NCBI RefSeq assembly: GCF_029168335.1
Contig: NZ_JARGYC010000007.1
Coordinates: 1-64,000 of the forward strand
DNA: 64,000 nt
Source of the DNA: Psychromarinibacter sediminicola
GTDB lineage: Bacteria; Pseudomonadota; Alphaproteobacteria; Rhodobacterales; Rhodobacteraceae
Direction of reading: 5' to 3'
The translations under genes were made by a program, and so were the position numbers. The notes under the pieces are model-generated. The model searched no databases and was not told the DNA's origin. It saw only the letters and a list, made by a program, of their open reading frames with translations. This document shows positions 16,943 to 26,169 of this stretch, piece after piece (the stretch's first letter is position 1; every line of letters starts with the position of its first letter).

Positions 16943-17016
16943 TGGAGGCGAGTACCGGAATCGAACCGGTGTACACGGATTTGCAATCCGCTGCGTAACC
17001 ACTCCGCCAACTCGCC
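16943..17016 (-). tRNA. tRNA-Cys (GCA)
   Basis: On the minus strand, GGCGAGT pairs with ACTCGCC as the 7-bp acceptor stem. The anticodon loop reads ATTGCAAAT with anticodon GCA, the T-arm is CCGGTTCGATTCCGG, and the 3' end TCCA is encoded. Length is 74 nt. Its 5' 40 nt also occur at 26125-26163, marking it as the integration target of the 9.1 kb island. All bases upstream of the 5' end appear to be island-derived. Confidence 0.97.
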
Positions 17017-17022
17017 AGAGTG
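16977..17022. other. Attachment site, left copy (46 bp)
   Basis: The stretch beginning GGATTTGCAATCC and ending CTCGCCAGAGTG is repeated in the same orientation at 26124-26169 with one mismatch (GTAACC here, GTCACC there). It covers the 5' half of tRNA-Cys from the anticodon stem plus 6 bp upstream. Confidence 0.92.
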
Positions 17023-17028
17023 TTGCAT

Positions 17029-17057
17029 TCCTTAGGTTTCGTGCTCGCTGCCGTCAA
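17029..17057 (-). promoter_or_regulatory. Island-supplied promoter of tRNA-Cys
   Basis: On the minus strand TTGACG (17057-17052) is separated by 17 bp from TAAGGA (17034-17029), placed 13 bp before the tRNA 5' end. The spacing and position are right for a sigma-70 promoter. It lies outside the repeated att core, so it came with the island. Confidence 0.6.
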
Positions 17058-17058
17058 G

Positions 17059-17079
17059 CGGTTATCACTCCGGTTATCA
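17059..17079. promoter_or_regulatory. Candidate integrase arm-type sites, left end
   Basis: CGGTTATCA occurs at 17059-17067 and 17071-17079, 12 bp apart. The same 9-mer recurs just inside the right end of the island at 26041, with an inverted CGTTATCA at 26077-26084. Pairs of short repeats flanking an att core are typical of tyrosine-integrase arm sites. Confidence 0.5.
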
Positions 17080-17104
17080 GGTTTCTGTTCTGTGCCTGTT
17101 CCGT

Positions 17105-18097
17105 TCACTGCCGCTTCTCCCAGGCTTGCCGTGCGCGCATCATCTGCCGCGCCTCTCCGGCGTACTTTCGGATCATCTCCTTGGAGCTGTGGCCGCTGTA
17201 GGAGGCGATCTCATCGTCGTCGCAGCCCGCCCAAGCGAGCTCCATGACGCCGCGGTAGCGCAGCGCGTGGAGGTCATAGGCCATGAGGTCGAGACGCTTG
17301 CGCTCCCGCGCCATGACGCGCGACATGTATCGGTAATCCATCGGGGAGCCGTCCGGCCGGGTCAGGATCGTGAGCCCGTTCTTGGATGCCGAGTCGAGCG
17401 CGGTTTTCAGCTCGGCCGTACAGGGCAGCCACAGCGACTTGTCGGACTTGCCCTGGACGATCCGCAGGCTCTCGCCGTCGTAGTCGTTCCAGCGAAACAG
17501 GGTCCAGTCGCTCGGTCGCTGGACGCTGCCGACTCCGATCTCGAAGATCAGCCGGGGCAGGGGGCTCGCCTCTGCGCGCCACTTCTTCACCGCCCAGTCC
17601 GGCCACGGGATATGAGGCTGTGCGCGATCCTGCGGCACGCTCAGGCGCCGAACGCCCTTGGCGGGGTTGTCCTTCATCCAGCCGAGGTCGATGGCGTGCT
17701 CGAACAACACAGACATGACCTGCGGCACGTAGTTGGCGAAGCGGGTCCGGTGCCGGTTGGCCTCCATCGCGGCAATCACGTCCTTGCGGATCGTGCGGGT
17801 CGCGTCCCGGTTGCCGTTCTTCTCTTCGATGTAGATCAGCACCTTCTCATAGTCGCCGCGCGTCCTCACCTTGAGGCGCGTCCAGCGGTCGGATCTGCGG
17901 TAGGAGGCGATCAGCGCACTCCAGGAGGTTTTGCACTCCACCGCGCGGCCGGTGAGGATATCCCAGTACTGGCGATCGAACTCGGAGCTGGGGTAGGGCG
18001 CCGTGATGCGGCCGAGGTATTTCCCGCCCTTTCGGACATAGACGAAGCCCGGCTTGGTCTCGATCAGGTATTTCTTGCCGCCCCAACGGTTCACCAT
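17105..18097 (-). CDS. Tyrosine-type site-specific integrase
   Basis: This 330-residue recombinase catalyses integration and excision of the island at tRNA-Cys. The catalytic domain shows the expected residues: Arg in VQRPSDW, Lys in VQGKSDKS, HALRYRG (His-x-x-Arg), GHSS, and the Tyr of IRKYAGEAR. The N-terminal half carries a core-binding SAM-like domain. It is adjacent to the att site, as is usual. The start ATG at 18097 overlaps the end of the upstream excisionase-like gene by 7 bp, so the two are translationally coupled. Confidence 0.95.
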   Translation of the reverse strand: MVNRWGGKKYLIETKPGFVYVRKGGKYLGRITAPYPSSEFDRQYWDILTGRAVECKTSWSALIASYRRSDRWTRLKVRTRGDYEKVLIYIEEKNGNRDATRTIRKDVIAAMEANRHRTRFANYVPQVMSVLFEHAIDLGWMKDNPAKGVRRLSVPQDRAQPHIPWPDWAVKKWRAEASPLPRLIFEIGVGSVQRPSDWTLFRWNDYDGESLRIVQGKSDKSLWLPCTAELKTALDSASKNGLTILTRPDGSPMDYRYMSRVMARERKRLDLMAYDLHALRYRGVMELAWAGCDDDEIASYSGHSSKEMIRKYAGEARQMMRARQAWEKRQ

Positions 18098-18297
18098 GTC
18101 ATGCCCCCGCCTTCCATCGCGTCGCCGCGGGCGATGCGCTGCAGCTCTTCCACGTCCCACCGCTCAAGCCCGCCGAGGTCGCGCGGACCGGGCAGGTGCC
18201 CCGCATCCACCAGCCGACGAAACTCGTCCCGCTTCATGCAGAACAGCTCCGCAGCGGTCTTGTCGTCGGCAAAGAGGGGGGCGGGGCGGGTGGTCAT
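18091..18297 (-). CDS. Small helix-turn-helix protein, excisionase-like
   Basis: A 68-residue protein resembling AlpA/excisionase-type winged helix proteins: ADDKTAAELFCMKRDEFRRLVDAGHLPGPRDLGGLERWDVEEL matches the pattern of a helix-turn-helix followed by a wing. It overlaps the integrase start and is separated from the upstream regulator gene by one base. It probably directs excision or regulates int. Assignment is from fold pattern and position. Confidence 0.75.
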   Translation of the reverse strand: MTTRPAPLFADDKTAAELFCMKRDEFRRLVDAGHLPGPRDLGGLERWDVEELQRIARGDAMEGGGMTW

Positions 18298-18298
18298 G

Positions 18299-18850
18299 TC
18301 AGCTGCTTGACCCCACGCGATATACTTCATCCAGGACTGCAGATGGATCCAGGCCCAAGCGTGTGCACACCTTGTTGAAGACCTTGGAAACATTCACAGC
18401 GATGAATGCCGAAGGATCGCCAGTACCGCCGACATTAACGGCGCTTAGAGGGATTTTCCCGTCCGTGATCGCGACTATTTTTGCTTGTTCGCCAAAGATC
18501 AGCATAAACGTTTCACCGTGCTGGTGGTGATACGGCATGGCGATTTTCCGGTCGGGTTCTGCCGGGTCGTCCCATTCCGCGTAGCCGGCCGGCCCTTCAC
18601 CGAAATGCGCAAACTCTCTGGCCGCCGAGAATGCCTCCTGCGGTGTCGCGATTCCGAGACGCAGTACGGCAGCCGCCACGGCAAACTCCATCAGGTTCTC
18701 CCAGGAAAACAGCCTCGCGCGTCCTTTTCCGCCGCCGCCGCTGTGGCCAACGATCAACCCACGCGCCGCCCAGTTCTGAACCGACTTGTGGGTGAGATCG
18801 GTCGCGTCTGCGACTTGCTGCGATGTAAATTGCCGCGTGGTGAGCTGCAT
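18299..18850 (-). CDS. MerR-like HTH regulator of the integrase operon
   Basis: A 183-residue protein whose first 70 residues look like a MerR-type HTH: FTSQQVADATDLTHKSVQNWAARGLIVGHSGGGGKGRARLFSW. The remainder (a mostly helical segment followed by LIFGEQAKIVAITDGKIPLSAV) is not recognised. The start at 18850 is preceded by GAGG. It is first in the operon regulator-excisionase-integrase, and two inverted-repeat operators overlap the promoter just upstream, which suggests autoregulation. Confidence 0.72.
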   Translation of the reverse strand: MQLTTRQFTSQQVADATDLTHKSVQNWAARGLIVGHSGGGGKGRARLFSWENLMEFAVAAAVLRLGIATPQEAFSAAREFAHFGEGPAGYAEWDDPAEPDRKIAMPYHHQHGETFMLIFGEQAKIVAITDGKIPLSAVNVGGTGDPSAFIAVNVSKVFNKVCTRLGLDPSAVLDEVYRVGSSS

Positions 18851-18868
18851 GTGCGCCTCGCCGTTTTT

Positions 18869-18930
18869 TATCTCATGGTAAGATATCGCGGCGGCGAGGC
18901 GCTTGCAATACAAATCTCACCGAAAGATAT
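18869..18930 (-). promoter_or_regulatory. Promoter with two operators for the integrase operon
   Basis: On the minus strand TTGCAA (18908-18903) lies 17 bp from TATCTT (18885-18880). Two related inverted repeats surround it: TATCT-n7-AGATA at 18869-18885, covering the -10, and ATCT-n7-AGAT at 18914-18928, upstream of the -35. Their common form is ATCTCAnnGnAAGAT. The arrangement suits repression by the adjacent regulator. Confidence 0.6.
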
Positions 18931-18932
18931 TG

Positions 18933-19190
18933 CTAGCTTCGCGGCTTCGCCCAAAGACCCCGCTTGGCGTCGCGCTCCAGCCCCTCTGTGCCGCTGAGCA
19001 CCACTTCCATGAGCATCGCGGCCACTTCAAGCGTACGTTCGATTGCGCCGGCGCGCTGATCAGCGTTCACGGATCCATCCATGGGGTCCAGCGCTAGCCG
19101 GGCGCATAGAATCAGCCCGTCCACGTCGTAGGCGACCGCGTTCGCCACGTCTCGGCAGTCAGCCTTTACGATGTCGTCCAGCCGTCTCAT
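18933..19190 (-). CDS. Small island protein, unknown function
   Basis: An 85-residue mostly helical protein (MRRLDDIVKADCRDVANAV...). Its ATG overlaps the stop of the upstream 78-residue gene by 4 bp (ATGA), so the two are co-translated. No domain recognised. Its stop codon lies close to the operators of the convergent-side integrase operon. Confidence 0.65.
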   Translation of the reverse strand: MRRLDDIVKADCRDVANAVAYDVDGLILCARLALDPMDGSVNADQRAGAIERTLEVAAMLMEVVLSGTEGLERDAKRGLWAKPRS

Positions 19191-19423
19191 TCCACCACCT
19201 CCGGAAAGTTCACGCTGTCGAGTTCGATGTTGAGGCTGTGCGCCATCTCGGTTGCGACGCCGATCAGCACGGTCTTGCCGCCGGCGCAGGCGGACTCGTT
19301 GTCCAGGAAGTCGATGGCCTCCATGATCCCGAACAGCTTCATGGATGTGTTCTGCGCTCTGTTCAGGCGCTCCTTGAGCGAAGACATAGCGGGGCCGTTC
19401 CCGCAAACGGGGTCTTTGGTCAT
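19187..19423 (-). CDS. Small island protein, unknown function
   Basis: A 78-residue protein with the segment SSLKERLNRAQNTSMKLFGIMEAIDFLDNESACAGGK, probably alpha-helical. AGGAG lies 9 bp before the ATG. It is transcribed divergently from the XRE regulator, with two matching palindromic operators in the 80-bp gap. No family recognised; an early-gene or anti-defence role is possible but unsupported. Confidence 0.65.
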   Translation of the reverse strand: MTKDPVCGNGPAMSSLKERLNRAQNTSMKLFGIMEAIDFLDNESACAGGKTVLIGVATEMAHSLNIELDSVNFPEVVE

Positions 19424-19445
19424 TGTCAGGGTCTCCTGATTGGGG

Positions 19446-19505
19446 TATCAACAGTATATGTTGATAGAGGAACGACGCGGCCCGCGTCAACAGAAAATGT
19501 TGATA
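19446..19505. promoter_or_regulatory. Twin operators between divergent island genes
   Basis: O1 is TATCAACA-n5-TGTTGATA (19446-19466), perfect over 8-bp arms. O2 is TCAACA-n5-TGTTGA (19487-19503) with a shared flanking base pattern. The centres are about 40 bp apart, close to four helical turns. A leftward TTGACG -35 lies within O2 and a TATCAA -10 within O1. O2 also abuts the XRE start codon at 19505. Confidence 0.7.
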
Positions 19506-19741
19506 TGACACCAGCACAATGTCGGGCGGCACGCGCGCTCATCGGAATGACACAGCCTGATCTAGCCAAAGCGGCCGAATTCGGTCTGTCCACCATCGTG
19601 GACTTCGAAAGGGAAAGGCGGGTGGTTTCTACCGTCGCGCAAGTCAGAATGCGCGAAGCCCTCGAATCCGCCGGCGTCGAGTTCATCGAAGAGAATGGTG
19701 GCGGAGCGGGGGTCAGGTTGAGAAAGGAGACCACAGAATGA
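19505..19741 (+). CDS. XRE-family transcriptional regulator
   Basis: A 78-residue HTH_XRE protein: ARALIGMTQPDLAKAAEFGLSTIVDFERERR is the typical five-helix DNA-binding domain, followed by a short beta-rich tail. The ATG at 19505 immediately follows the O2 palindrome with no ribosome-binding site, so the mRNA may be leaderless. It probably binds O1 and O2 and controls both itself and the divergent gene pair, like a phage repressor. Confidence 0.85.
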   Translation: MTPAQCRAARALIGMTQPDLAKAAEFGLSTIVDFERERRVVSTVAQVRMREALESAGVEFIEENGGGAGVRLRKETTE

Positions 19742-19980
19742 AGGTCAAACTCATTGAAAGAGGTTCGAGTGATCAGGGCGGGATCGCGGATCTTGAAACC
19801 AAGCATCTGCCCTCAGTGGGGGACGAGATTTCCCTCGATTTTGGCGCCGGTCACTCGTCGCACTACGTGGTTACGAAGCGCATATTCCGGGCCTACGCAG
19901 AGAAGGGTGACATCGGAACCGCTTTCATTGAGGTGGAGAGGCGACAGGACAGTCCGCACTCGTGGATGGACAATTTGTAG
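19738..19980 (+). CDS. Small protein co-translated with the XRE regulator
   Basis: An 80-residue protein, mainly beta by appearance (MKVKLIERGSSDQGGIADLETKHLPSVGDEISLDF...HYVVTKRIFRAY). Its ATG overlaps the XRE stop by 4 bp. A strong terminator follows about 75 bp downstream. Function unknown. Confidence 0.65.
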   Translation: MKVKLIERGSSDQGGIADLETKHLPSVGDEISLDFGAGHSSHYVVTKRIFRAYAEKGDIGTAFIEVERRQDSPHSWMDNL

Positions 19981-20056
19981 TCTGCTCCTCTTCCCAACAT
20001 GCCCGGTTGATTTGGAGGTGTCCGCCGCGAACTGCTTGTTTCCGCGACCAGTCGGT

Positions 20057-20085
20057 AAAGTGGCGCAACTTGCGCCACTTTTTTT
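20057..20085 (+). terminator. Strong Rho-independent terminator
   Basis: AAAGTGGCGCA (20057-20067) pairs perfectly with TGCGCCACTTT (20071-20081) around a 3-nt loop and is followed by more T residues to 20085. It ends the XRE operon transcript. Confidence 0.92.
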
Positions 20086-20096
20086 CGTGCACGGGA

Positions 20097-20329
20097 GGTT
20101 TCGGGACAAATTGACCCGAAACCCAAAGGGGGGGCGACCAGCCAAGCGCGGCAAAATCGAGTGGTTCAAGTTGAGCCACCCGAAATTGGGTACAAGAAGC
20201 CGCCGCAGCCTCCGGAGGTGGCCGAAAGACTCCAAAGCTTCCATTTTGTGGATGTGAAAATTTGACACCCCACGCCGGTTCCCTGATCAAAGCCATGGAG
20301 ATCAACCCACCCCCTCCGGCTCGGCTGCA
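20097..20329. other. Non-coding stretch inside the island
   Basis: No gene can be supported here. It contains a hairpin with GGTTTCGGG/CCCGAAACC arms (20097-20123) and a second with GTGGTTCAA/TTGAGCCAC arms (20161-20179). The left part of a decayed leftward gene probably extends into it. Confidence 0.4.
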
Positions 20330-20678
20330 AACCGACCTGCTGGTCCCGGTCAACGTCCTTCAAGCGATCCAGGAATGTCCCTGTATCGAGGATCGTTCCC
20401 CGGATAATTTCGCGGGCTTCGTCGCAGACCTTGTCGGCTCGGGAGACAGCGCGGTTGATGGTGGTCTTGTTGACGCCAGTTGTCTTCGCCGTATCGCTCG
20501 AAAATTCTTTTGGTCGACCTCGCGAACGATTTTCGGTGCAAGTTGCACCACTATTCCGCGCCTCCCACAGTTCCTTGCGCTTGGCAAAGTGAAAGAGGAT
20601 GGCGCCCGTCCGAAAGTCCAGACGCGGACGGATGCGGCCCGCGAAGCGGGGCCAAGTAGAAAGCTGGCCCCGCTCGAA
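20330..20678 (-). pseudogene. Remnant of a ParB/Spo0J-like phage or plasmid protein
   Basis: Read on the minus strand, this segment is open and encodes GRIRPRLDFRTGAILFHF, AKRKELWEARNSG and then RGRPKEFSSDTAKTTGVNKT, TINRAVSRADKVCDEA and ILDTGTFLDRLKDVDRDQQV. That is the central pattern of ParB-like proteins of phages (an HTH with 'DTA..TG......RAV.R..K', then 'GT.LD.G..LD.L'). There is no start codon, the N-terminal nuclease/CTP domain is missing, an in-frame stop lies just upstream, and similarity ends near 20330. It looks like a truncated gene. Confidence 0.6.
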
Positions 20679-20681
20679 AAC

Positions 20682-20933
20682 TCACTTATTGGAGCCGGTC
20701 CAACCGCCTTCTTGTAGCGCTTGTCCATATGGTTGGTTATCTTTTACGGCATCACTCTGCGCTGGGCCGAACCCGCCTTTCTCCCGGTCTCCGCCTGCAG
20801 AGTTTCGCGTGGCGCGTTCTACGCCGATTGGCGCAGCGTTTTCGTTTGGCTGGCCGGCACCATTGTAGGCGACAGCAAATCCGGAGCCGGCCAGGAAAAC
20901 GGCGACTGAGGTCGCGGTTAGCATGATCTTCAT
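20682..20933 (-). CDS. Small exported protein, unknown function
   Basis: An 83-residue protein with a signal peptide (MKIMLTATSVAVFLAGSGFAVA). The mature part is polar and Gly/Asn/Gln-rich, without cysteines, probably disordered. GGAGGAG precedes the ATG. It is the only gene in the island predicted to be exported, so it may be cargo. No family recognised. Confidence 0.65.
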   Translation of the reverse strand: MKIMLTATSVAVFLAGSGFAVAYNGAGQPNENAAPIGVERATRNSAGGDREKGGFGPAQSDAVKDNQPYGQALQEGGWTGSNK

Positions 20934-21054
20934 GAGATTCTCCTCCACAAACAAAGCTGCCCGAAGGATAATCCGAATTCCGCCTGCCTCTAGGTCACTT
21001 TCGCTCATAAATGTCGTTATATCAAGCCTTTGCTCACAACCCTCTTCCCGAGCG

Positions 21055-22818
21055 CTAGACCAAGCGGATAATGGAGCCGTCTTCCTGCGCCTCATTGAGC
21101 AAGCTGATAAGGTCTATCATCTCCTGCCGCGTTGGACGCTGGTTCCCAATGCTTACGTTGTAGACCGTGCGCGGCGACGTGGGTTGAGCCGCCGCAGCGC
21201 CGGAACCTACACCACCGCCGCCACCGCCTGCGGCCTGACCACCGCCGCCACCGATGCTCTGGCTGGAAATGGAGCTGATCAGAGCGCCTGTGCGAGCCAG
21301 GGACGCCGCTGTGAAGGCCGCAGCGAGCGGCGGGCCGCCCTTGTCCATACCCTTGGCCCATGCCGCCACGGCGGCGCTGTAGCCGTTCACCACCGCCTCC
21401 GCGATGGCCGCCGCCTTCCCGATCTCGAACAGCCTTTTGTTCTCGGTCTGCATCAGGGATGCCAAGTCACCGAACATCCCCGCCAGGTCCTGCAACATCG
21501 CAGCGCGGCGCTTTCTCTCCAGCGCCATCATCTTCTCCTGGTGCTCGGCATGGATGCGGCGCTCGGTTTCGTTGAACTCTTCTTCCGTCGCGAGCTTGGC
21601 GTTGCGGAACTCCTCCAACTGCTCAAGCTGGCGCTCGTAATTCTCCTGGATGATCTCCTGTTCCGTCGCGAAGTTCTCGCGCAGGCGCTCGAAATCTTCC
21701 TCGGTCGGACCGCTACGCCCTCCGCCGCCTTTCCTGCCTGTCGACGGCGGCTTGTTCCCCGTTCCGGGATTGCCCGGTGTCGTAATGCCGGGGATCGGTT
21801 CTGCTTCTTCACCGTAGGACCGAACGTTGCCGTTCTCGTCTACATAGAACAGACCGGTATTGCTCGGGTCGCCCTCGCCCGGCCTTGTCTGAACCTCTTC
21901 GGGATAATCGCCACCATCCTTTGCCGATGACGTGTCCTTAACGTCCAGACCCATCAGAATTCGCAGCGCCCGATTTGCTGCCCCGGCGGCTGAGGCAACG
22001 TCACCAAGAAAGGTGACAAGATCGGTCAGAGCCGGGATCGCGGTATCCGCCACCCACGTCGCGAGCGTGCCGATCTCATCTCCAAGGTCGGACAGAGCCG
22101 TGATGACCGACGTTTCGATGGTGCGCCGCGCGTCGTCCAGCGTCTCGTCTAGCTCGCGCGCCTTCCGGATCGTCTCCCGATCCAGAATCCGGCCAGTCTC
22201 CTGTGCCTCGTCGCCAAGCTCGCGCATGGCCTGGCCGTTGTTGCGCAGCAGCGGTAGAAGCGCCGTGGCGTCGTTGGCCAGCGCCTCCATATAGAAGGTC
22301 ATTTGCGCCTGACTGGCACCGGCCTTTTCCAGACTATCGACGTAGAGCTGAAGCGCTTCCGGCCCGGACAGGCGCGCGAACTCATCCGCCGTCACGCCGA
22401 CCAGAGGCGCGATGTTCTCGAAGAAGTCGGCCATCGGGCCGCCGCCCGTGGCGACAAAATCCCCGATCCGGTCGTTAACGTCCTTGAGAATGTCCGAAAG
22501 CTTTTGCTGGTCTATCCCGACCGTGCGCGTGGCTTCGGCCATGCGCTGGAACTCGGTGGTTCCAACCCCCGCAATATTTGCGAGGTTGTCGACCTCCACA
22601 GCTGTTTGCGCCGCGCGGCCCGCAAGCGCCACAGTCCCCGCCGTAATGGCGGTGATGGCAGCCGTAACCTTGGTGGCGCTGCGGGCGAAATTCGCCATTG
22701 CACGGCTGGAATCTCGCTCGAAACCTCGAACGGATCGCGATCCCTGCCGCATTCCGCGCTGAAGGGGGCTAATGTCAGCCCCGACCGATACCGCGATATC
22801 GCCCACAACCTGCGCCAT
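21055..22818 (-). CDS. Phage tail tape measure-like protein
   Basis: A 587-residue protein. Its N-terminus (MAQVVGDIAVSVGADISPLQRGMRQGSRSVRGFERDSSR) is typical of tape measure proteins, followed by hydrophobic helices (TAAITAITAGTVALAG) and a lambda-like middle region with a Gly/Pro-rich spacer. The C-terminal third is coiled-coil (residues about 370-480) and Gly/Ala-rich. It is short for a tape measure, implying a short tail or a role in another assembly. Its ATG overlaps the terminase small subunit stop by one base (TAATG). Confidence 0.82.
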   Translation of the reverse strand: MAQVVGDIAVSVGADISPLQRGMRQGSRSVRGFERDSSRAMANFARSATKVTAAITAITAGTVALAGRAAQTAVEVDNLANIAGVGTTEFQRMAEATRTVGIDQQKLSDILKDVNDRIGDFVATGGGPMADFFENIAPLVGVTADEFARLSGPEALQLYVDSLEKAGASQAQMTFYMEALANDATALLPLLRNNGQAMRELGDEAQETGRILDRETIRKARELDETLDDARRTIETSVITALSDLGDEIGTLATWVADTAIPALTDLVTFLGDVASAAGAANRALRILMGLDVKDTSSAKDGGDYPEEVQTRPGEGDPSNTGLFYVDENGNVRSYGEEAEPIPGITTPGNPGTGNKPPSTGRKGGGGRSGPTEEDFERLRENFATEQEIIQENYERQLEQLEEFRNAKLATEEEFNETERRIHAEHQEKMMALERKRRAAMLQDLAGMFGDLASLMQTENKRLFEIGKAAAIAEAVVNGYSAAVAAWAKGMDKGGPPLAAAFTAASLARTGALISSISSQSIGGGGGQAAGGGGGGVGSGAAAAQPTSPRTVYNVSIGNQRPTRQEMIDLISLLNEAQEDGSIIRLV

Positions 22819-23240
22819 TATTCAGTCTCCCACGGCCTCAACTGCGCCGGCCGGCGCTTCTTGTTTCCTCGGTGATTGGTCAGCGCCTGCTGCGTGATGC
22901 GCATCTTGGTGGCCAGGCTGGCAATCGCTCGACCCTCGCGGTCCTGCATCCGGTAGAGCCGGTCCAGCGTGTCCAGATCCAAAGGGTCTTCCGCCTCCGC
23001 TGCGTCGATCAACTGCGCCGCGCGGCGGGCAGTGACGATGTGACGGACGTACTGCACCAGCAGCGGCAGGTTGTCGGCCGAGAACCAATCGGCCGGAAGC
23101 GCGTCCACGATCCCGGCCCAGATGGACTTCTGTTCCGGCGTCAGCTCGTCGGGCGCGGCGGGGCGCTTTACGCGCTCAACGCTATCCAACTTGACCACTT
23201 CAACCGATGATGCGGATTTCCTGCCGCGTTGTTCCATCAA
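22818..23240 (-). CDS. Phage terminase small subunit-like protein
   Basis: A 140-residue DNA-packaging protein. ELTPEQKSIWAGIVDALPADWFSADNLPLLVQYVRHIVTARRA followed by a second helical segment (MQDREGRAIASLATKMRITQQAL) matches P27-type small terminases. These recognise the packaging site and recruit the large subunit. No large terminase gene exists in the island, so a helper would have to supply it. It is coupled to the tape measure gene. Confidence 0.78.
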   Translation of the reverse strand: MMEQRGRKSASSVEVVKLDSVERVKRPAAPDELTPEQKSIWAGIVDALPADWFSADNLPLLVQYVRHIVTARRAAQLIDAAEAEDPLDLDTLDRLYRMQDREGRAIASLATKMRITQQALTNHRGNKKRRPAQLRPWETE

Positions 23241-23391
23241 TCCTGATCCTTACGATTTAGCGAAAACGGGCTCCCGCCGCCGGTTCCCCTCATCGGTCGC
23301 TAGAGACTGCACCACCCCCTCCGGGTGGGCGTGGCCGCCGAGCATGGCAGAGACCCGGCGACCACAAATCACGCGAAGGCAGGGCGCGCGA

Positions 23392-24570
23392 TTAGGTGCT
23401 GACCTTCAGCAACTTGATTGCGTTCGGGTCGTAGACGCAGCCACCGATCCGGCGAGCGAAGTAGAACTTCACGAATCCGGGTGCTGTCACGTCGTCGCGA
23501 ACCATGCGCATTCCGACACGTTCGGCGATTAGGTAGCCGCGTTGCCAGTTCCCGAACGCAATCGGCGTGTTGCCGTTCGAGACCGCCGGCATGTCATTCG
23601 CCTCGACCACCGGGAACCCGAGCAGGCTGGCGGGCTGGTCACCAAAACCGTCGCGCCAAAGGTAGTTGCCCTCGCCGTCCTTCAGCTTCCGGACACTCGC
23701 AATCGTGTTGCTGGCCATCATCCACGCCACGCCGGGGCCGGTGCGGTATGAGGGCGAAAGTGCGTACAGCGTGTCGATCAGGCTATCGGGCGACAGGCCG
23801 CCCGATACGCCAGTAACCACGTGCTGCAACTCGGACGTCGAGCGCGTGTCGTCGTCATCGGTACTGGTCGTGTATTGCAGGAAACCGCGCGGCTTGCCGG
23901 CTACCGCATCGCCGTTCACGAAGGCCGCGCCTTCCTGGTAGGCGAACTCTGTCGCAACGTGGTCGGAAAGAAACCTCTCAACGTCGAAACTCGCATCGTC
24001 GATGACGTGCGCGCTGACTTTCGGATAGGCGTAGAGTTCCGCGCTCTTCGGCTCGATGGCAATAAGCTGCGGGCTGTCCGTGGTCGTACGGGTCGCCTCC
24101 TCAGTCACCCAGCCGGAGCCTTCGCCACGTACGGAAAGCAGAGCTCGGTAATCCTGAGTCTCGGTCTGGACTACACGCGCCACGCGACGCACCGGCGAGA
24201 GTTCCTTGACCTGGGTGGTGACGAACTGAGCGATTTGCAGCGGTACCGCATAACCACCGTCCGCGCCGGTAGAGGTGGACATTGCCCGGGTCTCGCCGCG
24301 CAGCATCGACCGGAACTCGTCAGCGGCAGCGCCCAGCCGGCCGCTGTGACCTCGCGGCGCCATACGTGCGTCCATCGCGGCCTCGGTTTCGCGGAGACGT
24401 TCAGCGCTCGCCACTCGCTCGCCCAGGCTCTCGGCCTCGCCCATGTGTTCCTCAAACTTCTTCTTTTCGTCGGCGGTCATGGACCGACCCTCCGTCTCGG
24501 CGGCCTCAACAAGTGCCTTCGCGAGTTCGACCTTTTCGGCGCGTGCCGCCCTTAGCGATCTCATATCCAT
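23392..24570 (-). CDS. Major capsid protein, HK97 family
   Basis: A 392-residue HK97-fold capsid protein. Residues 1-75 form a helical delta domain (AEKVELAKALVEAAETEGRS, MTADEKKKFEEHMGEAESLG). The mature capsid starts near GGYAVPLQIAQFVT, with FVNGDAVAGKPRGFLQ, AWMMASNTIASVRKLKDGEGN and LLGFPVVEANDMP as typical segments. No head maturation protease or portal gene is adjacent. A 151-bp gap with a CCACCC/GGGTGG hairpin separates it from the small terminase gene. Confidence 0.95.
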   Translation of the reverse strand: MDMRSLRAARAEKVELAKALVEAAETEGRSMTADEKKKFEEHMGEAESLGERVASAERLRETEAAMDARMAPRGHSGRLGAAADEFRSMLRGETRAMSTSTGADGGYAVPLQIAQFVTTQVKELSPVRRVARVVQTETQDYRALLSVRGEGSGWVTEEATRTTTDSPQLIAIEPKSAELYAYPKVSAHVIDDASFDVERFLSDHVATEFAYQEGAAFVNGDAVAGKPRGFLQYTTSTDDDDTRSTSELQHVVTGVSGGLSPDSLIDTLYALSPSYRTGPGVAWMMASNTIASVRKLKDGEGNYLWRDGFGDQPASLLGFPVVEANDMPAVSNGNTPIAFGNWQRGYLIAERVGMRMVRDDVTAPGFVKFYFARRIGGCVYDPNAIKLLKVST

Positions 24571-24573
24571 CGT

Positions 24574-25026
24574 TTACTGCTCCTTTTCGTCGAGGCGTTG
24601 GTGAACACTCCGCTCGATCTCCTTGATGTTGATGATGACGACACCGACCGGCGCCTGTTCTGGAGCGGGTGTCTCGCTCCAATTGTCGTCGCCCTCGTCG
24701 GCGAGCGCCGCAAGAATGGTCTGTAGGCTGTCTGATTTCTCGACAGGCACACCACCCGGCGTCAGTCCGGTAATGAATGGCCCGGCTGCCGGAAACGCCC
24801 ACGCCGTCGGCAACTCATCAAGCTTTGTCATCCAGAACGCCGCCACACGGCGCGCCTCGGCTGCCGACGCGCCACAGTCTTGAAGCGCGCGCGCAGCAAG
24901 GAGTTCCACCGCCTGAGAAACGACGTCTGTCGTCGCAAGTGGTCCGTGGCGGAGCAGGTTGTTGACCGTGTGCCGGGTCGTGCCCGTAAGCTCTGCAATC
25001 CTAGAACTGCTCATGTCTGTTCTCAT
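24574..25026 (-). CDS. HTH protein heading the capsid operon
   Basis: A 150-residue protein with an N-terminal helix-turn-helix (SSRIAELTGTTRHTVNNLLRHG) and an unrecognised helical region, ending in an acidic segment. It ends 3 bp before the capsid gene. Starts at 25026 and 25014 are both possible; neither has a strong ribosome-binding site. Three CTCATGT repeats overlap its promoter and start, so it may repress its own operon. Confidence 0.7.
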   Translation of the reverse strand: MRTDMSSSRIAELTGTTRHTVNNLLRHGPLATTDVVSQAVELLAARALQDCGASAAEARRVAAFWMTKLDELPTAWAFPAAGPFITGLTPGGVPVEKSDSLQTILAALADEGDDNWSETPAPEQAPVGVVIINIKEIERSVHQRLDEKEQ

Positions 25027-25069
25027 GTTCGTGCGGTCTCATGTTACACACCCTTTTTAATCGTGTAAA
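25010..25069 (-). promoter_or_regulatory. Promoter of the capsid operon with CTCATGT repeats
   Basis: On the minus strand TTTACA (25069-25064) is 17 bp from TAACAT (25046-25041). CTCATGT occurs at 25010-25016, 25022-25028 and 25038-25044 on the plus strand. The last overlaps the -10 element and the first two contain the alternative start codons. Confidence 0.5.
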
Positions 25070-25500
25070 GCAGCTCAGAGCGGCTAGGGCCGAATTCACC
25101 AGCGATGTTCTTGCCGCGTTCATGCCTGCATTAACCTTTCGTTCGTCATCCGTTCGACCGGACGCACTACCGCCACCCGCTACCTGCCCCCGATACACAA
25201 GGCAGGTCCCGACGCTTCCCGCTCCGTATCCGCGCGATGCCCTGTGTCGTGGGCCAGACGCCTGCCCGCGGGCTTTGCTCCCGCCCCGCCCATCGCAGCC
25301 TTGCTCCGGTGCGGTCCCCGGTCGGTCACGGCGCGTTCTCTGCGCCTCACCCGCCGGTGGGTTTTGGTGTCGCGCTTCTGGCAGGGGCCAGTCGGGACCG
25401 CTTCCTGCCGGGCCGGGTGATCTCCCCGGAGCGTGTCCGCCCTTTGGTGGCCGGGAGGGCGGAAAACCGTGGCTGGGGCTTTTCATGGCGCATCGCCTGC
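25070..25500. other. Gene-free stretch in the island
   Basis: The 430 bp upstream of the capsid-operon promoter contain open frames on both strands, but none has a ribosome-binding site, a recognisable domain or the codon use of its neighbours. It is C+G-rich, unlike the operon beside it. It could hold the packaging (pac/cos) or origin region; nothing diagnostic is visible. Confidence 0.35.
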
Positions 25501-25502
25501 GT

Positions 25503-25578
25503 TATACTATTACGTATCGGAGAGCCCCCGCTTGAACCGATACCAATGCGAGCCCCCGCCTTGTCCCGGCGGGGGTTT
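25503..25578 (+). ncRNA. Candidate small RNA with two hairpins
   Basis: A TATACT -10 (25503-25508) with a TTTCAT at -35 (16-bp spacing) precedes GTATCGG (25514-25520) pairing with CCGATAC (25537-25543). A terminator hairpin CCCCCGCC/GGCGGGGG with TTT follows. The predicted RNA is about 65 nt and contains no open frame. A second CCCCCGC in the first loop (25524-25530) could compete for the terminator's 3' arm. Confidence 0.4.
25553..25578 (+). terminator. Rho-independent terminator
   Basis: CCCCCGCC (25553-25560) pairs with GGCGGGGG (25568-25575), followed by TTT. It separates the rightward region from the leftward small genes at 25582-26030. Confidence 0.75.
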
Positions 25579-25581
25579 CGT

Positions 25582-25800
25582 TTATCCGTCCTCGATCACC
25601 TCCAGGTCGTTGGTCTCGTGGAACAGCTCCGACACGAGGCGGCGCATGATGGCCTCCTGCTTCTGGCTGGGTTTCCAGTGGCGGCGCCGGGACTGGCGGA
25701 CGATGGATGCAGCGAAACCGCGCGACCAATCGTTCTCGGCCTTGTCCCGGACGGCCGGCATGTGGTGGATCAGTTCTTCGGTGGAGCGGGGGCGGGTCAT
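25582..25800 (-). CDS. Small island protein, unknown function
   Basis: A 72-residue basic, helical protein (MTRPRSTEELIHHMPAVRDKAENDWSRGFAASIVRQSRRRHWKPS). Its ATG overlaps the upstream gene's stop by 4 bp. Of a size and type common at prophage ends; no domain recognised. Confidence 0.6.
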   Translation of the reverse strand: MTRPRSTEELIHHMPAVRDKAENDWSRGFAASIVRQSRRRHWKPSQKQEAIMRRLVSELFHETNDLEVIEDG

Positions 25801-26030
25801 GCGGCCCTCCCGTGTTCCACGTCGAAGATCGCCGTCTCGGCGGTCGCCATGGCGTCGTCATCATCCAGGCTGCGCAGAGCGGCGTATGCGAGGGCAGCGC
25901 GCTCGGCGGGCGACAGGATGATGCGGATGAGGAAGGCGAAGCCGATCCAGGCGTCGAAGTCGCCCAGCGTCAGGGTGTAGCCCAGCAGCTGAGAGGCGCG
26001 CTTGTGCGCCGGTTTGGCGAAGCGCGACAT
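25797..26030 (-). CDS. Small island protein, unknown function
   Basis: A 77-residue protein (MSRFAKPAHKRASQLLGYTLTLGDFDAWIGFAFLI...) with one amphipathic or weakly hydrophobic helix. Start at 26030 has no clear ribosome-binding site; the frame stays open upstream through the tRNA remnant, which is not coding. It and the next gene lie downstream of the displaced tRNA-Cys promoter. Confidence 0.58.
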   Translation of the reverse strand: MSRFAKPAHKRASQLLGYTLTLGDFDAWIGFAFLIRIILSPAERAALAYAALRSLDDDDAMATAETAIFDVEHGRAA

Positions 26031-26040
26031 GGCGGATTTG

Positions 26041-26084
26041 CGGTTATCAGGTTCACCAGCCGTTCCGGCTTTGTCCTGATAACG
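26041..26084. promoter_or_regulatory. Candidate integrase arm-type sites, right end
   Basis: CGGTTATCA at 26041-26049 faces an inverted copy (TGATAACG) at 26077-26084; GTTATCAGG/CCTGATAAC arms would also form a stem. The direct 9-mers at the left end are identical. Confidence 0.5.
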
Positions 26085-26123
26085 ATTTTTGGGGAAGTCT
26101 CTGTTTTCTTGGCGGAAACGGCG

Positions 26124-26169
26124 GGATTTGCAATCCGCTGCGTCACCACTCCGCCAACTCGCCAGAGTG
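26124..26169. other. Attachment site, right copy (46 bp)
   Basis: Direct repeat of 16977-17022 with one mismatch. It marks the right border of the island. Confidence 0.92.
26125..26163 (-). pseudogene. 5' fragment of tRNA-Cys
   Basis: These 39 nt match the intact gene from its first base (26163) through the anticodon stem, then stop. The D-loop reads GGTGACGC instead of GGTTACGC in the intact gene. It is the displaced half left by integration. Confidence 0.9.

Follow-up and report, generated by a model that had tools for sequence, protein, structure and literature searches.

A 64,000-nucleotide stretch of the Psychromarinibacter sediminicola genome (contig NZ_JARGYC010000007.1, positions 1–64,000 of the forward strand; hereafter, the window) contains an island of about 9.1 kb at positions 17023–26123, which is inserted at a tRNA-Cys gene and encodes a major capsid protein, a terminase small subunit (TerS), and a tail length tape measure protein. 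We tentatively interpret this island as a phage satellite that supplies the head shell, the tape measure, and the packaging choice and that would take the portal, the packaging motor, and the remaining tail parts from a helper. The insertion at tRNA-Cys, the intact frames of the integrase (int), the excisionase (xis), the capsid protein, TerS, and the tape measure protein, and the presence of similar reduced sets in other genera speak for a satellite. An earlier note on this DNA had described the island with int, xis, regulators, and an operon for a helix-turn-helix (HTH) protein, capsid, TerS, and tape measure; direct repeats, an empty site, and Pfam and PHROG matches bear out that description. 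The same note had proposed a phage satellite. The cassettes of the integrase lineage, the recurring reduced sets, and the intact genes identify a mobile element of the satellite type by comparison, but the integrase is not sufficient proof of a satellite, because one of its relatives (locus L124) lies in a prophage-like contig.

The island and its late operon

The island is bounded by 46-bp direct repeats (45 of 46 positions identical; Table 1), and its G+C content is 0.57–0.65, compared with 0.69–0.79 in the flanks shown. The repeated att core consists of the 5′ half of a tRNA-Cys(gca) gene (16943–17016, minus strand; a single tRNA call by ARAGORN and the only match in an Rfam scan) and six bases beyond it. 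In another genome of the genus (G676, locus L113; G and L numbers are our handles for genomes and loci), one tRNA-Cys gene adjoins a homolog of the chemotaxis-receptor gene located to the right of the island and thus represents an empty site, which together with the duplicated core indicates an insertion of about 9.1 kb. The core of the empty site carries the same base as the right repeat copy, and the 5′ half of the present tRNA-Cys gene was therefore probably supplied by the element.

The late operon runs on the minus strand in the order hth, capsid, TerS, and tape measure. The hth and capsid genes are separated by 3 bp, and the TerS and tape measure genes overlap by 1 bp; these junctions agree with the tightly coupled, overlapping operon described earlier, whereas the capsid–TerS gap of 151 bp does not. 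The C-terminal part of the tape measure protein matches phrog_9483 (1.6e-83 for the best stretch, up to position 652 of 657). The region has four promoter-like sites against 1.6 expected, and a search for cos/pac or origin repeats in 25020–25600 returned only two short two-copy repeats.

The structural frames had been called intact, and we reached the same view from the coding base composition of the long island frames and from conserved sites that stay within the range of relatives. The fraction of conserved columns retained was 0.85 of 48 for the capsid protein (rank 6 of 21 from the lowest; median of the others, 0.96), 0.86 of 21 for TerS (rank 5 of 15 from the lowest; 0.90), 0.94 of 70 for the tape measure protein (rank 14 of 29; 0.99; looser column threshold), and 0.98 of 112 for the integrase (rank 13 of 25; 0.98). 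No close relative of the island turned up in the searched genomes and contigs.

The HTH protein was matched among 295 family genomes in its own genome alone and among 385 class genomes by one further sequence, which has stops inside; no relatives were found in viral contigs or phages, and its single-sequence model is of low confidence (mean pLDDT 40). The capsid protein matches 236 of the 295 family genomes, a count swamped by gene transfer agents (GTAs): 95 of 105 capsid loci have at least one other GTA-like gene under a rough score rule that also flags some phage-like loci, including L214, L216, and L217. As a single query, it found no match in viral contigs. TerS has matches in three of the 295 family genomes and three of the 385 class genomes (own included in each case), 12 relatives in viral contigs at 48–53% identity, and three named genome relatives at 49–52%. 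None of the TerS-relative loci, several of which are short, shows the island operon.

The earlier note had also stated that portal, protease, large terminase subunit (TerL), tail, and lysis genes are absent, and our scans were negative as well. All six frames of the island were searched with full-phage proteins and with profiles for the portal, protease, TerL, HNH, connector, tail tube, and GTA genes; no gene of these kinds was detected, while two positive-control elements gave matches. The PHROGs scan of ten island proteins yielded neither TerL nor HNH, and no lysis gene was recognized among the frames scanned against Pfam and PHROGs. A full prophage hidden in the island was ruled out, as no portal or TerL appeared in these scans.

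Reduced elements and the integrase lineage in other genomes

Reduced sets resembling that of the island were found in four other genomes. The element of G077 (L173; another genus) carries int, xis, MerR-like and XRE-like regulators, a tape measure protein (650 aa; phrog_9483, 9.3e-40), a capsid protein (380 aa; phrog_10, 2e-64), and a primase-helicase, and it is flanked by the same att core in copies 10,167 bp apart. That of G235 (L201, also L190 and L181; another genus) has a different integrase, an excisionase-like gene, a primase, a capsid protein (416 aa; phrog_10, 2.2e-64), and a tape measure protein (717 aa; phrog_10574, 5.3e-19), with 14-bp repeats 9,754 bp apart, one of which lies at a tRNA-Cys 3′ end. 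In G152 (L194; same genus), an integrase, a helicase, a capsid protein (phrog_10), and two tandem TerS genes (phrog_83) were found; no tape measure gene was seen in this locus, and its element boundaries were not found. G144 (L315) combines an integrase, a primase, a protease, and a capsid protein (phrog_10) between 53-bp tRNA-Leu repeats 10,083 bp apart. The six-frame search detected no portal or TerL in any of the four, and a protease in G144 only.

Among 15 capsid loci judged to be non-GTA and read with wide flanks (the island, L173, L201, L194, L197, and L315–L324), five lack both portal and TerL and ten have at least a portal; the loci were picked by capsid or integrase matches and several are cut by contig ends, so that five of 15 is no rate. 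Seven bounded elements measure, from repeat to repeat, 9147 (the island), 9754, 10083, 10154, 10167, 10317, and 11073 bp, a narrow range that would fit a packaging limit.

In a capsid tree of 61 rows, the island groups with G235, G144 (L214), and L012, which is a phage contig (support of 95/96), and G077 and G152 share a set with ten rhodobacterial GTA capsids (100/99); row L035, labeled as a GTA, is the G152 element itself. The island branch is long (0.83) and its exact position is unsure. Since the capsids of the elements lie in separate clades, the reduced sets, judged by this phylogeny, must have drawn their capsids from two or more sources. The capsids of the five elements are 27–45% identical in pairwise comparison, and the tape measure proteins of the island and G077 have only two short stretches in common (25–32%).

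Some side observations concern these genomes. The two TerS genes of G152 (L194, 8099–9132) lie behind the capsid gene and are 41% identical to each other. The same genome has another element at tRNA-Cys (L108, 4377–15649), whose integrase is divergent and whose TerL-portal-capsid cassette is of the lambda type. In G235 (L201, 393–11372), one tRNA-Cys gene is apparently occupied at both halves, by the capsid–tape measure element on its 3′ side and by a lineage integrase on its 5′ side. A GTA-like capsid frame of G144 (G144:C23:155168-156388, L210) contains one in-frame TGA.

The island integrase belongs to a 31-row clade of the integrase tree (100/100). At E ≤ 1e-60, it has matches in 22 of 289 family genomes, counting its own, and it has relatives at 17 viral-contig loci with 38–72% identity; a search of 50,697 phage records gave 29 matches, all below 60% identity, with the top-ranked at 32%. 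Clustering, profiles, and PHROGs on representatives placed head or packaging genes beside int in 15 of the 17 viral loci. Nine have HK97-type TerL, capsid, and portal, with an HNH cluster in six and a protease cluster in six of these nine; two (L122 and L129) have lambda-type TerL, portal, and a protease-capsid fusion; and two (L128, whose contig begins inside the cassette, and L132) have TerS-TerL-tape measure. L161 is a fuller copy of L132 that also carries protease, capsid, and major tail protein genes. Two further loci are partial, namely L126 (capsid-like, connector, protease, and portal) and L137 (portal and connector). The remaining two, L124 and L138 (38% identity, with an Erf-like gene), resemble parts of larger prophages, which ruled out the idea that the lineage is absent from phages.

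We also fetched 13 genome loci with at least 53% integrase identity, and two of the viral loci proved to be genome loci (L122 that of G065, L135 that of G205). G065 and G223 are of the lambda type, G205 is of the HK97 type, as is the plasmid NZ_CP039965 of Pseudorhodobacter turbinis, and G077 has capsid and tape measure genes. In G151, G001, G100, G203, and G210, profiles revealed no structural gene; these carry restriction-modification or AAA-type genes (an EcoRI-type methylase, a type I R subunit, an AAA_21 protein, Eco57I with an OLD-like ATPase, and ResIII with a DNA methylase). The loci of G252, G137, G235, and G221 are cut or ambiguous.

Within the clade, the island and G065/L122 are sisters (98/92; 74% integrase identity to G065), and G077 is placed elsewhere, together with L132 and three elements of the HK97 type (100/99). 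The head cassette of G065 is of the lambda type and unrelated to that of the island; therefore, head modules appear to have been swapped on a stable integration backbone, which would not be simple decay. The island has the traits of the lineage in its att core, duplicated at both ends and used by several lineage elements (L126 and L128 use tRNA-Trp instead), in xis beside int, and in the small genes p72 and p135 at the far end. It lacks the complete head cassette that is commonest in the lineage.

Three observations on lineage and related loci are added here. In L161, L128, L318, L320, L321, and L322, TerS-TerL stands directly before the tape measure gene and after the connectors, the usual order being terminase-first. 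L137 (1–18292) holds the lineage integrase, portal, and connector between tail-type genes at both contig ends and may represent an element next to or within a prophage. L174, L175, L176, L177, and L180 have the lineage integrase with restriction-modification or AAA/OLD-type genes in place of virion genes.

Other genes of the island

Outside the late operon, the island carries int, xis, a regulator block, and small genes (Table 1). Relatives of the MerR-like regulator adjoin xis in L125, L127, L137, and also L173, and the protein as a single query had no match in viral contigs; those of the XRE-like regulator occur in L122, L123, L125, L133, L134, and L173. A terminator-like stem (20057–20081) lies downstream of the small gene that follows the XRE-like gene. 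Some short p135 matches merely reflect the tRNA repeat. A start-less open frame of 170 codons (20169–20678, minus strand), located between the tape measure gene and the regulators, corresponds to what had been taken for a decayed ParB-like gene. We could not confirm that assignment: the best Pfam match has an E value of 0.17 (LacI HTH), and no PHROG matched at 1e-3.

Table 1. Features of the island, in coordinates of the window
Feature	Coordinates	Strand	Remarks
HTH protein, operon head	24574..25026	-	weak HTH match only; no relatives found
HK97-fold major capsid protein, 392 aa	23392..24570	-	PF05065 5.6e-68; RcGTA capsid structure 6tb9 2e-58
Terminase small subunit (TerS), 140 aa	22818..23240	-	phrog_12559 4.4e-36, residues 2–140
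Tail length tape measure protein, 587 aa	21055..22818	-	phrog_2854 4.9e-85 (N part)
Promoter-like site, just 5′ of hth	25041..25069	-	9/12 consensus match
Left att repeat	16977..17022		46-bp direct repeat over tRNA-Cys 5′ half; core common to other elements
Right att repeat	26124..26169		has base found in G676 empty site
Tyrosine integrase	17105..18160	-	PF00589 3.1e-10; lineage tree
xis-like excisionase	18091..18393	-	phrog_66 9.7e-4; 74% over 73 aa to L122 xis
HTH/MerR-like regulator	18299..18913	-	PF12728 1.8e-4, under Pfam curated cut-off
Small protein, regulator block	19187..19423	-	coding base composition; weak L173 relative, 25 bits
XRE-like regulator, divergent	19505..19741	+	PF13560 3.4e-3, under Pfam curated cut-off
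Small protein 3′ of XRE-like gene	19738..19980	+	open frame; no PHROG match
Small protein, signal-peptide-like N-terminus (by eye)	20682..20930	-	no Pfam match
Small conserved protein p72	25582..25800	-	relatives in 8/17 viral-contig integrase loci; no PHROG
Small conserved protein (C-terminal part of frame p135)	25797..26030	-	cluster c6, members in other integrase loci

Known satellites and rival explanations

The island belongs beside the capsid-encoding satellites, which the earlier note did not name. Capsid-forming phage-inducible chromosomal islands (cfPICIs) are described as encoding a full head set (capsid, portal, protease, and connectors) together with HNH and both terminase subunits and as using a helper for tails only (PMC10690885). 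The island resembles them in being integrative, in having int and its own capsid and TerS, and in having no lysis module. Because portal, protease, connectors, TerL, and HNH are missing, and with a tape measure gene added, we do not file it as a cfPICI; it may work like a cut-down one. Alphaproteobacteria are not among the main cfPICI hosts in the list cited (PMC10803314). The candidate PICIs of Mycobacterium, including phiRv1 and phiRv2, are phage-like regions with integration machinery and a major capsid protein, some with terminase (PMC10654092). Their loose definition covers the island, but their hosts and integrases are different and the cited part of their description does not mention a tape measure protein. 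The Streptomyces satellites MulchRoom and MiniFlayer also encode capsid and packaging genes (PMC10690885); unlike the island, they have, as described there, a portal, both terminase subunits, and virulent helpers, with an integrase in MulchRoom only.

P4, classical PICIs, PICI-like elements (PLEs), and phage-inducible chromosomal minimalist islands (PICMIs) are small, integrate into the host genome, and rely on a phage (PMC11389934, PMC10803314); PICMIs are reported to encode no capsid remodeling genes. The island differs from P4-like satellites in having no primase/helicase replication gene recognized in the Pfam and PHROGs scans, and from an intact prophage in lacking portal, TerL, tail tube, and lysis genes. 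None of P4, classical PICIs, PLEs, and PICMIs is known to encode its own major capsid protein; the gene set is indeed unlike the P4, PICI, and PLE layouts, as had been noted. In searches of the open-access PMC literature, we found no description of a satellite with capsid and tape measure and without portal.

If the island is such a satellite, an active helper siphophage would trigger its excision and the expression of the late operon. The satellite capsid protein would form a shell, probably a small one, on the helper portal, and the helper protease would mature it; TerS would direct satellite DNA to the helper TerL, and the satellite tape measure protein would be incorporated into tails otherwise made of helper parts. 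Chimeric particles would then be freed by helper lysis.

Several points weigh against this interpretation. A capsid protein that must match a foreign portal and protease is demanding. Conserved-column retention of the capsid protein and TerS is in the lower third, though within the range of relatives. A search for the four-gene operon had been suggested; its exact order was found nowhere else in the searched genomes and contigs. No replication gene was recognized in the island, unlike in G077, G235, G152, and G144. L124 (64% integrase identity) lies in a 40-kb contig with a tail fiber gene (phrog_5616), a methyltransferase gene, and other phage-type genes. No resident helper with a PF04860-type portal was found in the host genome, lambda- and SPP1-type portals not having been searched genome-wide.

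The missing replication gene and the L124 contig also count toward the main rival, in which the island derives by deletions from a prophage or a more complete capsid-encoding satellite, keeps capsid, TerS, and tape measure by chance, and no longer moves as particles. The start-less frame, the occurrence of phage relatives of each gene in ordinary gene orders, and an operon order that resembles the capsid..TerS-TerL-tape measure order of L161 minus TerL and connectors point the same way. However, the best PHROGs differ from those of L161 (phrog_12559 versus phrog_83 for TerS; phrog_2854/9483 versus phrog_10574 for the tape measure protein), the frames are intact with conserved sites retained, and similar reduced sets are found elsewhere in combination with other capsid clades and integrases. 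A full prophage at the same site with the same genes at high identity, which the earlier note had named as the sign of recent deletion, did not turn up in the searches run. We regard decay as a serious but rather unlikely explanation.

Ranked below it is an anti-phage function, in which the structural proteins act as decoys that shield the host by poisoning assembly or packaging in incoming phages, particle spread being secondary. In five elements of the integrase lineage, restriction-modification or AAA-type genes take the place of virion genes, and a system family that interferes with tail assembly can lie in PICIs, according to the cited part of its report (PMC11364771). Such a role is improbable, as full-length proteins with conserved sites would exceed the needs of a decoy and as TerS and xis indicate functions in packaging and excision.

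Use of the host GTA as a helper, with the element lending its capsid, TerS, and tape measure to the GTA machinery, comes last and is very improbable. Only one PF04860 portal was found in the host genome, and it is part of a GTA cluster with TerL, portal, protease, capsid, and tail genes (G000:C110:53198-73196, L019), to which the second capsid of the host also belongs, so that a helper prophage was ruled out as its source. The island capsid is related to the HK97-fold capsids of rhodobacterial GTAs, its best solved-structure match being that of RcGTA, and the capsids of G077 and G152 fall with them. The island set itself is not a GTA, its capsid groups elsewhere in the tree, and its tape measure protein has no match in L019. 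RcGTA heads hold about 4 kb, which is less than half of the island.

Beyond this single island, it is possible, although we put less trust in it than in the satellite interpretation itself, that the reduced elements form a recurrent satellite class whose virion genes are limited to those for parts that determine dimension or content (capsid, tape measure, and optionally TerS). This class would rely on a helper for portal, motor, protease, tube, tip, and lysis, would have arisen repeatedly by joining different capsid clades and integrases, and would yield particles chimeric part by part. In that class, the capsid would determine head size, the tape measure protein tail length, and TerS the choice of DNA. 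Known capsid-encoding satellites bring the whole head and borrow the tail, and a shell and tail ruler without portal or motor would differ from this. If true, heads and tails would be mixable part by part across unrelated phages, which bears on how a capsid accepts a foreign portal and on what a tape measure protein recognizes. One integrase lineage with swappable head cassettes would also offer a natural series for the gain and loss of virion genes by satellites.

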